Part shown: positions 7,349 to 11,024 of the stretch, one piece after another
Layout: each line of letters opens with the position of its first letter
Position numbering within the stretch: position 1 is the first letter of the stretch
Origin: Marinitoga piezophila KA3
GTDB taxonomy: Bacteria; Thermotogota; Thermotogae; Petrotogales; Petrotogaceae
Reading direction: 5' to 3'
NCBI RefSeq assembly: GCF_000255135.1
Contig: NC_016751.1
Location: 558,001-622,000 of the forward strand
DNA: 64,000 nucleotides
Program-made: the position numbers and the translations under genes
Notes under the pieces: generated by a model
Database searches by the model: none
What the model was told of the DNA's origin: nothing
The model's input: only the letters and a program-made list of their open reading frames with translations

Positions 7349-7783
7349 TTAAATCCTCCCAAGAATCATAATAGTAACAATTAATCCATAAATTGCTATA
7401 CCTTCAGCAAGACCAACATATATCAATGTTTTACCCAACAATTCTGGTTTTTCACTAATTGCACCAACTGAAGCAGCACCTACCATACCTACACCAACAC
7501 CTGCACCAATAGCTGCAAGTCCTGTTGCCAATGCGGCACCAACAAGACCTAATCCAAGGTTGTTATTTGTATCTGTTACTGCTGCTTGTGTAGTTCCTTC
7601 AGCAAATACATTTGTTGGGAAAAGTCCTATTACTGCAAACACTAAAATAGCCACAAATAAAGCTATGTTTCCGGCAAACACCTTTTTAGCGAATAATCTA
7701 GCTTTTTCTGGATTTTTTGAAAAGTAAAAACCTGCCCATACTGTTGAAATAACTAAAAACATCAATGAGATAACATATGCCAT
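7349..7783 (-). CDS. atpK: V-type ATP synthase proteolipid subunit K (rotor ring), with N-terminal extension
   Basis: The membrane rotor subunit (144 aa from the ATG at 7783; the GTG nine bases further upstream lies inside the SD GGAGGTG). The C-terminal half is a classic c-type hairpin: a Gly/Ala-rich helix 'GLAAIGAGVGVGMVGA', a polar loop 'SEKPE' and a helix with the ion-carrying Glu at about residue 127 (GLAEGIAIYG). Only this one carboxylate is present, so it is a single-hairpin rotor unit. Two extra hydrophobic segments (residues about 1-20 and 40-58) precede it, the second ending FPTNVFAEG, which looks like a cleavage or membrane-exit site. The glutamine typical of Na+-binding rings is not evident in helix 1, so H+ coupling is plausible but unproven. 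Confidence 0.92.
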   Translation of the reverse strand: MAYVISLMFLVISTVWAGFYFSKNPEKARLFAKKVFAGNIALFVAILVFAVIGLFPTNVFAEGTTQAAVTDTNNNLGLGLVGAALATGLAAIGAGVGVGMVGAASVGAISEKPELLGKTLIYVGLAEGIAIYGLIVTIMILGRI

Positions 7784-7880
7784 AACTAACACCTCCGTGA
7801 TTTTAAAATTTAAATATATTTTTAATAATTAAAAATAAAAGTTCTTTTAGATAGTGAAATTTTTTAGTTTGTATTTATTA

Positions 7881-8081
7881 TAAGAAAATAGTTAGAATAA
7901 TGTGAGCGAAAACTTGAAAATTCCCGAAAAAATTCGAAGTGGAGCCGGTCAAAATCACACGGATGTGATTTTGAGTGAAGACGAACATGGATGTGAGTCT
8001 GCAACGACCGGCAGGAACGAGAATTTTTGAGGATTAGAATTTTCTACCGTTTGAGCGAACATTATTCGTACTATTTTCTTC
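7881..8081. repeat. About 200-bp folded intergenic element between ATPase genes I and K
   Basis: The gap 7784-8105 holds no ORF but a nested inverted-repeat structure. Outer arms 7881-7903 and 8059-8081 match in 20 of 23 positions. An AT-rich second stem is possible between about 7905-7935 and 8020-8050. The core is GCCGGTC (7944-7950) with GACCGGC (8006-8012), enclosing AAAATCACA/TGTGATTTT (7951-7959/7964-7972) and AGAC/GTCT (7979-7982/7997-8000). Its GC content is higher than the flanks and 'GAGCGAA' occurs near both ends. It could be a MITE-like repeat, a REP-type element or a structured RNA of the operon mRNA. I see no second copy in this window. Confidence 0.7.
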
Positions 8082-8105
8082 ATATTAACCTTTAAAAAAA
8101 TTTTA

Positions 8106-9962
8106 CTAAAATTTATATTTTATAGGATTAAATTCCTTTCCATCACCTTTAAAGAATCTTGTAAAAAATTCATAATACTCAAGCCTCAACGTTTGAATAA
8201 ATACTACAAGACCTTCAAGAACGATTATTATTATATTTCCAAGCAATAAAATAACAAATGACGATACGGGATTATTTGTCATTTTTGCCATCATATAAAA
8301 AGCCAAAAACAAGCCTGCATGATTCATTGCAAAAGCACCAAGCCTTATAAATGAAAGCGTATTACTCAAATATCCCAATAATACTTCAAATAAATCAAAG
8401 AATCCCTGAACAATTTTCTCTCCAAATTTCCCTTCTTCAAATAAAATACTTCTTAAATATATTAAAACTACTAATGTAATTATGAATATATAACTTATTT
8501 TTGGAAATACCCCATTTTTCATCATATAGAATACTGAACCTAATAATATCCAATACAAGGCTATTCCAGATATACCATTTGGATCAAATAATAAAAAGCT
8601 TTTTTCTCCACGTCTAATTCTATTTGCTATATTTAAAATCATTGCCACAGTTATAATTGCTATACCAAAATACACAGAAAGCAATAAGAAATAATTTATA
8701 TTATCCATAGGACGTTTCCACAATGGATGTATAATATCTTCAAACCCAAAAACGCTTCCATATAAAACTCCAAATAGCATTGAAGATAACCCTGACGCAC
8801 CTATTACATAAAACAAATCGGAACCTTTCTTTTTATATAACCAAAAACCTAATGCCGAAAGTATAAAACCATGTCCTACGTCACCAAACATCATTCCATA
8901 GAAAAACAAAAACATTAAAGTTATTAACGGCGTTGGATCAATTTCATCACTTGATGGAACACCAAACATTTTCACAATAAATTCAAAATGTTTGAAAAAT
9001 CCCTTATTATTTAAAATAGTTGGTGCTTTATCATTAAATGCATATCTTAAAAGTAATATGTAATCATTTGTATTTACATGTTTTTCAAGTTCTTGATATG
9101 TTTCTCTGGTAGTCCAACCAGATATTACAAAAAAGTTTTCTGTAAACTTAACATTTTGAGCAAGATCATATATGTTTTTTAGAACAAATATGTAATCAAA
9201 ATATTTGTATATAAATCTTCTATTTTCGAAAAATATCTTCTTTTTTGCCATATTTAGCATTTCTATTTCATACTCAATGGACTTGTATTCATCATATAAT
9301 AAAAGTAATATGTCTTTTGGATAACCTGCATAGTCTTCATTAATCTTATATTCGACAAAATTTGCTATGGATAAAATCTTTTCTATTTTTAAATTGGAAT
9401 CATATATTATAAAAACCCAGGTATTTACCTCATCCGAGTCAAGGATAATGCTTATTATATTCTCCTTTTTTATACTGTCACAAAACCTTTCAAAATAAAG
9501 CTTATTTAATTTTCCTATCCTATATTTTAAACGTTTCATTTTTTTTAGATCTGATACATCTATATCTATATTTTTCAATTTTTCAAATAATTCAATTTCC
9601 TTTGACAAAATTTCTTTTTTTTCGCTTAACTCTGACATTTTATTTGATATATTTTCCAGTTCTGTATTCAACTTTTCTGAAAAATTACTTATTTCATCCT
9701 TATCTATAATCATAGGGAAATCTATTTCTTTAACTTTTGGTTTGGGGGTTCTATTTACACTATTGAATATATTCATAAAATCATCATATATCTGTTTATA
9801 TGGATTTTCTTTTTCTGTTTTCAATTGTTTTAATATTTTTTTATCTATTACCTTTTCAAGAGGAACTATTTCTATATTATTAGAATCGAGAATCTTTTTT
9901 GAAATAATTTCCAATTCATATTTATTGGATATTATAGTGAATGGTATCATTTCTTTTTTCAT
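8106..9962 (-). CDS. atpI: V-type ATP synthase subunit I (membrane stator)
   Basis: The large membrane stator subunit (618 aa) carrying the ion half-channels. Residues 1 to about 320 are a cytoplasmic, coiled-coil-rich arm with 'NISNKMSELSEKKEILSKE'; the rest holds about eight membrane segments beginning near 'LITLMFLFFYGMMFGDVGHG'. The essential arginines of the family fall at about residues 540 (SFIRLGAFAMNHAG) and 593 (QTLRLEYYEFF). It begins 5 bases after subunit C's stop with the SD GGGGGTG. A folded 200-bp element separates it from the proteolipid gene. Confidence 0.95.
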   Translation of the reverse strand: MKKEMIPFTIISNKYELEIISKKILDSNNIEIVPLEKVIDKKILKQLKTEKENPYKQIYDDFMNIFNSVNRTPKPKVKEIDFPMIIDKDEISNFSEKLNTELENISNKMSELSEKKEILSKEIELFEKLKNIDIDVSDLKKMKRLKYRIGKLNKLYFERFCDSIKKENIISIILDSDEVNTWVFIIYDSNLKIEKILSIANFVEYKINEDYAGYPKDILLLLYDEYKSIEYEIEMLNMAKKKIFFENRRFIYKYFDYIFVLKNIYDLAQNVKFTENFFVISGWTTRETYQELEKHVNTNDYILLLRYAFNDKAPTILNNKGFFKHFEFIVKMFGVPSSDEIDPTPLITLMFLFFYGMMFGDVGHGFILSALGFWLYKKKGSDLFYVIGASGLSSMLFGVLYGSVFGFEDIIHPLWKRPMDNINYFLLLSVYFGIAIITVAMILNIANRIRRGEKSFLLFDPNGISGIALYWILLGSVFYMMKNGVFPKISYIFIITLVVLIYLRSILFEEGKFGEKIVQGFFDLFEVLLGYLSNTLSFIRLGAFAMNHAGLFLAFYMMAKMTNNPVSSFVILLLGNIIIIVLEGLVVFIQTLRLEYYEFFTRFFKGDGKEFNPIKYKF

Positions 9963-9966
9963 CTTA

Positions 9967-11007
9967 TTACACCCCCATTAATAACAAAAACTCTTTAATC
10001 TTTTCATTTGGCAATTTATATCTTTTTCCTTCAATTAATGTTATTAAATCCTTATATTCATATTCCCTTATATACAAATATCCACTCATTACATCAAATC
10101 CATTTTGTGTATGAGATATTAGCTTCCTTGATGATTTCAACAAAATTCTTTCACATAACCTTTCAATAATATATGGAAAAATTTCCGGATCAATATTTTT
10201 AAAGAATTCACCATATTTATTTTCAGTTAATTTTGCAAGAAATTCATCTGTATTGGAAGCATTTGCAAGTTCTCTTAATTCATCCTGAGTTAATCTATAA
10301 TGTATAGGCATTAGAAAATTCAAAACCTCTTCTGGAGACAACTTAAATAATATTCTTGAACGATATATCCACTGTATATTAGCAAGATCCATTTGTTCAT
10401 AGAAAAGATATTTCAAGTTTTTTCCAAACATTGGCATTAAACTCAACATCGATTTCATATTGGTAAAATACCAGAAATCAAAAGCATTAAGAAGATATTG
10501 AATTTTTCCATTCTTTTGATAATTACTGTAAGCAGGTTCAAATATGGAGCCATACACACTATTTTTAAATACATTTAATGCATCATCAAAAGATTTAATA
10601 GTAAGCAGGGTATCTGTGGATATACTCTGGTGGTATAAGGGGAAGAATTTCTCCTCTGTAATATATTCAGGATGTTCAGAATGCAGGGAACGAAGGATAA
10701 ATTTTATATTTTCTATTTCAAATCTCTTTTCCATTAATTTGAAGAATCTTTGACCTTCAACTGGAAGATAGAAATATATATTATAAAAATCTTTTAAAAT
10801 TGCCTGTCTTATAAGTATTTCTACATCTCTTCTATGTAGTTTTGAAATATCCACATTTTCAAAATATTCTTTGTAATGTGTATTTGCTTTAAGATATTCG
10901 GTTACCTCTGTAACCGTTTCTGTATTTATCAAATTATTAAAGTCTTCCTCTGTCAATATTTTTGAATGCAAGACTTTAACCTTTGACATTAGGGCTGGAA
11001 ATTTCAA
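9967..11007 (-). CDS. atpC: V-type ATP synthase subunit C
   Basis: The funnel-shaped adaptor (about 346 aa) that links the rotor ring to the central stalk. It is nearly all helical, with 'RDVEILIRQAILKDFYNIYFYL' spread over about residues 60-85, 'MPMFGKNLKYLFYEQMDLANIQWIYR' in the middle, and a C-terminal 'REYEYKDLITLIEGKRYKLP' that matches AtpC/NtpC ends. I place the start at the TTG 11007-11005 because GGAGATGAT lies 9 bases upstream; an in-frame ATG at 11016 and TTG at 11022 are alternatives without a good SD. Confidence 0.88.
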   Translation of the reverse strand: MKFPALMSKVKVLHSKILTEEDFNNLINTETVTEVTEYLKANTHYKEYFENVDISKLHRRDVEILIRQAILKDFYNIYFYLPVEGQRFFKLMEKRFEIENIKFILRSLHSEHPEYITEEKFFPLYHQSISTDTLLTIKSFDDALNVFKNSVYGSIFEPAYSNYQKNGKIQYLLNAFDFWYFTNMKSMLSLMPMFGKNLKYLFYEQMDLANIQWIYRSRILFKLSPEEVLNFLMPIHYRLTQDELRELANASNTDEFLAKLTENKYGEFFKNIDPEIFPYIIERLCERILLKSSRKLISHTQNGFDVMSGYLYIREYEYKDLITLIEGKRYKLPNEKIKEFLLLMGV

Positions 11008-11024
11008 GGCTATCATCTCCAATT

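Follow-up and report, generated by a model that had tools for sequence, protein, structure and literature searches.

The 198-bp element at positions 7883–8080 (+ strand) of the window, i.e. the 64,000-nucleotide stretch of the Marinitoga piezophila KA3 genome analysed here, is very probably an old copy, probably no longer mobile, from a family of non-autonomous, MITE-like repeats in Marinitoga that have the fold of the TwoAYGGAY RNA family (Rfam RF01731) in their interior. The initial annotation had proposed either a mobile MITE-like repeat or a structured RNA. Both halves of this alternative are supported, the first by dispersed copies and an empty insertion site in relatives, the second by covariation and an Rfam match.

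The element lies within a V-type ATPase gene cluster (7349–11022, − strand), in the 313-bp gap (7793–8105) between the genes of subunit I (8106–9962, − strand; PF01496) and subunit K (7349–7792, − strand; PF00137). As initially annotated, the gap contains no genes and its base composition departs from that of the rest of the operon, with a GC content of 38% at 7900–8099 against 21–29% in the adjacent 200-bp segments and a reversed GC skew. In four sister species that possess the operon, the stop codon of I and the start codon of K are separated by at most ~30 bp with no fold between them, and the gaps are similarly short in two genomes from another genus of the same family. The four sister species thus have an empty site, as is typical for a MITE, and sequence comparison shows that the copy in the window came by insertion in its own lineage, antisense to the operon. 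The ~90 bp between K and the element (7793–7882) are AT-rich and have no counterpart in the relatives; a part of them, which reads AAAGAACTTTTATTTTT on the − strand, is similar to the terminus of another element, perhaps as an older remnant. No phages or plasmids were found, and four viral pattern matches are without model support.

The strong folding noticed at first is far beyond chance: the + strand of the element has a predicted fold energy of −76.5 kcal/mol (z −7.8; 0 of 200 shuffled sequences as good) and the − strand, i.e. the strand of the operon, of −63.2 kcal/mol (z −6.8). The outer arms (7882–7913 and 8049–8080, + strand) comprise 32 nt each and are 81% complementary (26/32), thus forming the terminal inverted repeat expected of a MITE, a feature that is also well defined in sister copies. 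The 23-bp arms with 20 matching positions described initially are their inner part, in which 20 of 23 nt pair, and weak further pairing outside the arms (7852–7865 with 8095–8108) adds a correction to that description. The GC-rich core GCCGGTC/GACCGGC was recovered as the two sides of a central stem (7944–7950 and 8006–8012, + strand; helix 4), which covaries across copies and encloses two small hairpins of the AYGGAY type, one at 7950–7973 (+ strand; loop ACGGAT at 7959–7964) and the other at 7980–7999 (+ strand; loop ATGGAT at 7987–7992).

Two AYGGAY-loop hairpins within one enclosing stem are characteristic of RF01731, which is the sole Rfam match of the element (7901–8059, + strand; 38.9 bits, E 1.1e-4) and is covered over its full model length (1–168). 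The score is ~4 bits below the gathering threshold of 43 bits, so the window copy should be regarded as a close homologue of passing copies rather than as a certified member of the family; the same genome contains 16 matches to RF01731, four of them above the threshold (43.4–50.8 bits). Weinberg et al. (2010; PMC2864571) listed TwoAYGGAY among probable RNAs, as one that is probably not cis-regulatory, and gave human gut, gammaproteobacteria and Clostridiales as its sources. The named species with matches is Marinitoga lauensis (Petrotogaceae), and a search with RF01731 across 103 genomes from 38 other genera of the phylum revealed no member.

The initial annotation had suggested searching for copies of the arms and core, and had taken several dispersed copies as a sign of a mobile repeat, a single syntenic copy with compensatory changes as a sign of a functional RNA, and the lack of both copies and conserved pairing, together with smooth RNA-seq coverage, as evidence against its proposal. 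BLAST of the element against its own genome returned dozens of matches. A covariance model (R1) built from 32 Marinitoga copies identified ~36 copies in this genome (a count derived from searches) and 41, 71, 25, 5, 1 and 1 copies in six congeners; its only match in the window (7907–8050, + strand; 144.9 bits) is to a copy that belongs to the training set. The element, with its dispersed copies, belongs to a short (198 bp), multi-copy (36 in the own genome) family without a transposase gene, as is usual for MITEs. The pairing is conserved as well: it is kept in 97.3% of cells of the 32-copy alignment, and 20 of 33 pairs exhibit changes on both sides, as expected for a member of RF01731, although the copies are related and the change counts thus do not represent independent events. 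The covariation score is 0.526, compared with 0.185 for shuffled and at most 0.131 for slid alignments. Whole helices are swapped between copies (the first hairpin, for instance, occurs as CAAAATCACA, CAATTTTGCA and CAAAAAAACA), and GGA is invariant in both loops of all 32 copies while the stems turn over. A strict test for two hairpins is passed by 64 of 85 copies in a wider set; among the others, most retain both GGA motifs, and in several a loop has clearly been lost. Copies from the own genome diverge from the window copy outside AAGAAAATAG...CTATTTTCTT and are often nested one in another, which hides their ends. Composite nested copies are found on its contig C2 at 1147150–1147720, 1330560–1331090, 1569140–1569550, 1620130–1620650 and 1860900–1861320, and in these the inner TwoAYGGAY element apparently replaces the first hairpin of the outer one.

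Loops that persist while their stems turn over are also what one would predict if the element were a functional RNA with a regulatory role in the host, e.g. a sponge or target of CsrA spread by selection, in which CsrA dimers would bridge the two GGA hairpins. The predicted fold indeed presents paired hairpins with GGA in ANGGAN-type loops, the own genome has a CsrA gene, as do all seven Marinitoga genomes, and binding of CsrA to TwoAYGGAY had been predicted by Gardner and Eldai before the present analysis (PMC4333381). However, CsrA is also present in nearly all relatives that lack the element, hence the co-occurrence does not discriminate. Moreover, the orientation of the copies with respect to genes is mixed, and in one sister species (hereafter G005) they are mostly antisense to co-directional neighbours (21 versus 7), while two congeners possess only a single copy. 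A host regulatory RNA of this kind is therefore rather unlikely.

As a structured RNA, the element had initially been suggested to set the ratio of K to I. This suggestion finds no support, as the element is antisense to the operon, none of the relatives examined has it in the orthologous gap, and a scan of the region 7600–8300 revealed no terminator-like site. A switch of K:I stoichiometry was rejected on the grounds that the element is not conserved at the site, and by the evidence at hand the element is not a conserved regulator of this stoichiometry; it may nevertheless exert a polar effect on the operon in this one species. One could imagine that here it reduces K relative to I, by partial termination or as a site of processing, or else that it stabilises the mRNA, and the strong fold of the operon strand, which starts ~25 nt past the stop codon of I, would be compatible with such a role. 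Against it stand the missing terminator-like site and the empty gap in the relatives. Besides, K is the distal product and is needed in excess, thus attenuation would act in the wrong direction, and we consider such a role improbable.

Evidence that the family is spread by DNA transposition comes from two sister species, in which the TwoAYGGAY core sits inside MITE-like shells with terminal inverted repeats (TIRs) CAGACTGTTGACAAA and flanking direct duplications. Shell A, whose ends were read in G005, has the form CAGACTGTTGACAAA...TTTGTCTACAAACTG and directly abuts duplications such as AAAGGAGTTCAGAAGAACTCCTTT or ACCAGCTGTATTTACAGCTGGT; in the comparison of flanks in G005, direct repeats are well above the null. 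In 26 of 37 TIR-bounded shell-A rows from G005 and M. lauensis, the duplication exceeds the 99% null, and 20 of the 26 duplications are hairpins of at least 6 bp, compared with 14% of random 24-mers. A few sites (in L202, L205 and L191) are counted twice among the rows, since the scan covered both strands as well as loci that overlap. The duplicated target of shell A is usually a whole terminator hairpin, a conclusion that is independent of the doubly counted rows, and M. lauensis, as an independent species, exhibits the same pattern. Shell B (TGTCYAA...TTRGACA) encloses the same core and is flanked by duplications of 9–15 bp, at or above the 99% null in 22 of 35 candidates, so that sister copies of both kinds display the target-site duplications (TSDs) of MITEs. 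A clear shell-B copy is also found in the own genome (C2:681676), within the loop of a terminator-like hairpin. Some shell-A elements of G005 (e.g. L188, L190, L192 and L198) lack the TwoAYGGAY core and possess another interior (CCCAAACTTTCGCTTCGCGAAA...); the core is thus not required for mobility. Of 26 co-directional gaps in G005, 25 have the copy closer to the 3' end of the adjoining gene (with genes called by simple ORF rules), a bias that the own genome does not share (10 of 16). The window copy exhibits no clear ends of shell A or B and no significant target duplication (score 21 versus 27 for the 95% null).

As to the enzyme, the IS1182-family transposase domain (PF13751) is confined within the genus to remnants in two species (G008 and G010) with one TwoAYGGAY element each, and was not found in M. 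piezophila (G000), G005, G006, G007 and G009, i.e. it is missing where the elements are commonest. The G008 remnant, the other end of which falls outside the contig, has the end TTTGTCTACAATCTG, followed by a palindrome; the G010 remnant starts with CAGACTGTTAACAAA, ends with TTTGTATTTAATCTG and is located between 22-bp near-identical palindromic repeats AAATAGG(A/C)CTTTCGGCCTATTA, a duplication of the kind that flanks shell A. Both are decayed insertion sequences beside terminator palindromes (L203, 1–310; L204, reverse, 410–1833). Their ends are common to shell A of G005 and M. lauensis, which ties this shell to the IS1182 family, and are not recognisable in the window copy. A search for an autonomous shell-A element in G005 identified 42 TIR sites, and in the 16 inspected for open frames there was no transposase inside. 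IS1272, a member of the IS1182 family, targets stem-loops; stem-loop replacement without target duplication was reported for it, while the model of its authors (Fig. 13, pathway b) allows duplication of the whole stem-loop (PMC5678879).

Two other origins of the repeats can be dismissed. A repeat of the REP/RAYT kind, to which the palindromic, intergenic and clustered copies bear some resemblance and which would need a Y1 (IS200/IS605-type) transposase to move, is hardly credible and was rejected, since PF01797 was not found in the own genome and the sister copies exhibit target duplications and DDE-type terminal repeats. The outer arms as inverted copies of host flanks (snap-back), an idea suggested by the copy at C2:1777809, were likewise rejected, as the paralogue of that locus has a terminator hairpin at the corresponding place and insertion at a hairpin is the simpler explanation. 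The copy in question (L004, C2:1777809–1777951 of the own genome) is located in a hairpin where a truncated ATPase-like gene ends, and the hairpin of the paralogue, at C2:847645, is a plain terminator. ATPase-like genes form a large paralogous family, with 6 to 34 matches in each of the seven Marinitoga genomes and with several broken members.

For the MITE-like family we propose that the shells are moved by transposases acting in trans. The feet of a terminator stem-loop would be the place where an IS1182-like enzyme joins the element, and the hairpin would then be duplicated by repair; the adjoining genes would thus keep a terminator and the insertion would cost little. The window copy may have arrived by such a route, its ends having since diverged too far to be assigned to a shell; as neither a duplication nor shell ends can be read in it, its mobiliser is suggested by analogy with the sister copies. 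In the weakest step of this scheme, the conserved GGA loops may be kept through protein binding, with CsrA as the obvious candidate. Or perhaps TwoAYGGAY could be a portable module, as RNA or ssDNA, that serves non-autonomous transposons rather than a host regulator, with a fold that helps the different shells, e.g. by titration of CsrA, and with an enzyme of the IS1182 type that inserts at terminator hairpins, duplicates them and so makes the insertions nearly harmless? We offer this reading tentatively, as an idea with the odds against it.

As far as the searched literature shows, the link between TwoAYGGAY and TIR/TSD-bounded elements is new, and so is the observation that IS1182-like MITEs of Marinitoga duplicate whole terminators. 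For an Rfam family whose function is unknown, this adds a concrete biology in one genus, namely spread by DNA transposition. The sister copies provide a clean case of elements that target and duplicate a whole transcription terminator, and the stem-loop-targeting model proposed for IS1272/IS1182 becomes testable. The case is also a warning against reading similar folded gaps as regulators of operons.

In comparison with known systems, the Marinitoga elements share with TwoAYGGAY (RF01731; PMC2864571) the two AYGGAY-loop hairpins on a multi-branched stem, and the best copies of the own genome score 43–51 bits. They differ from the family as described in being multi-copy inserts, TIR/TSD-bounded in the sister species, and many of them score below the gathering threshold; one variant has the loops CAGGATG and AGGGAT. 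With IS1182/IS1272 they share stem-loop targets, and the Marinitoga remnants carry PF13751 together with the ends of the shell-A MITEs; however, IS1272 was reported to replace the stem-loop without target duplication, whereas in Marinitoga the whole hairpin is duplicated. Like other prokaryotic MITEs (QMITE, BOX/RUP/SPRITE; PMC10969869), they are short, non-coding, AT-rich, TIR-bounded, intergenic and mutually nested. Unlike these, they possess an interior with the covarying fold of an RNA family, common to two unrelated shells, and the targets of shell A are terminator hairpins.
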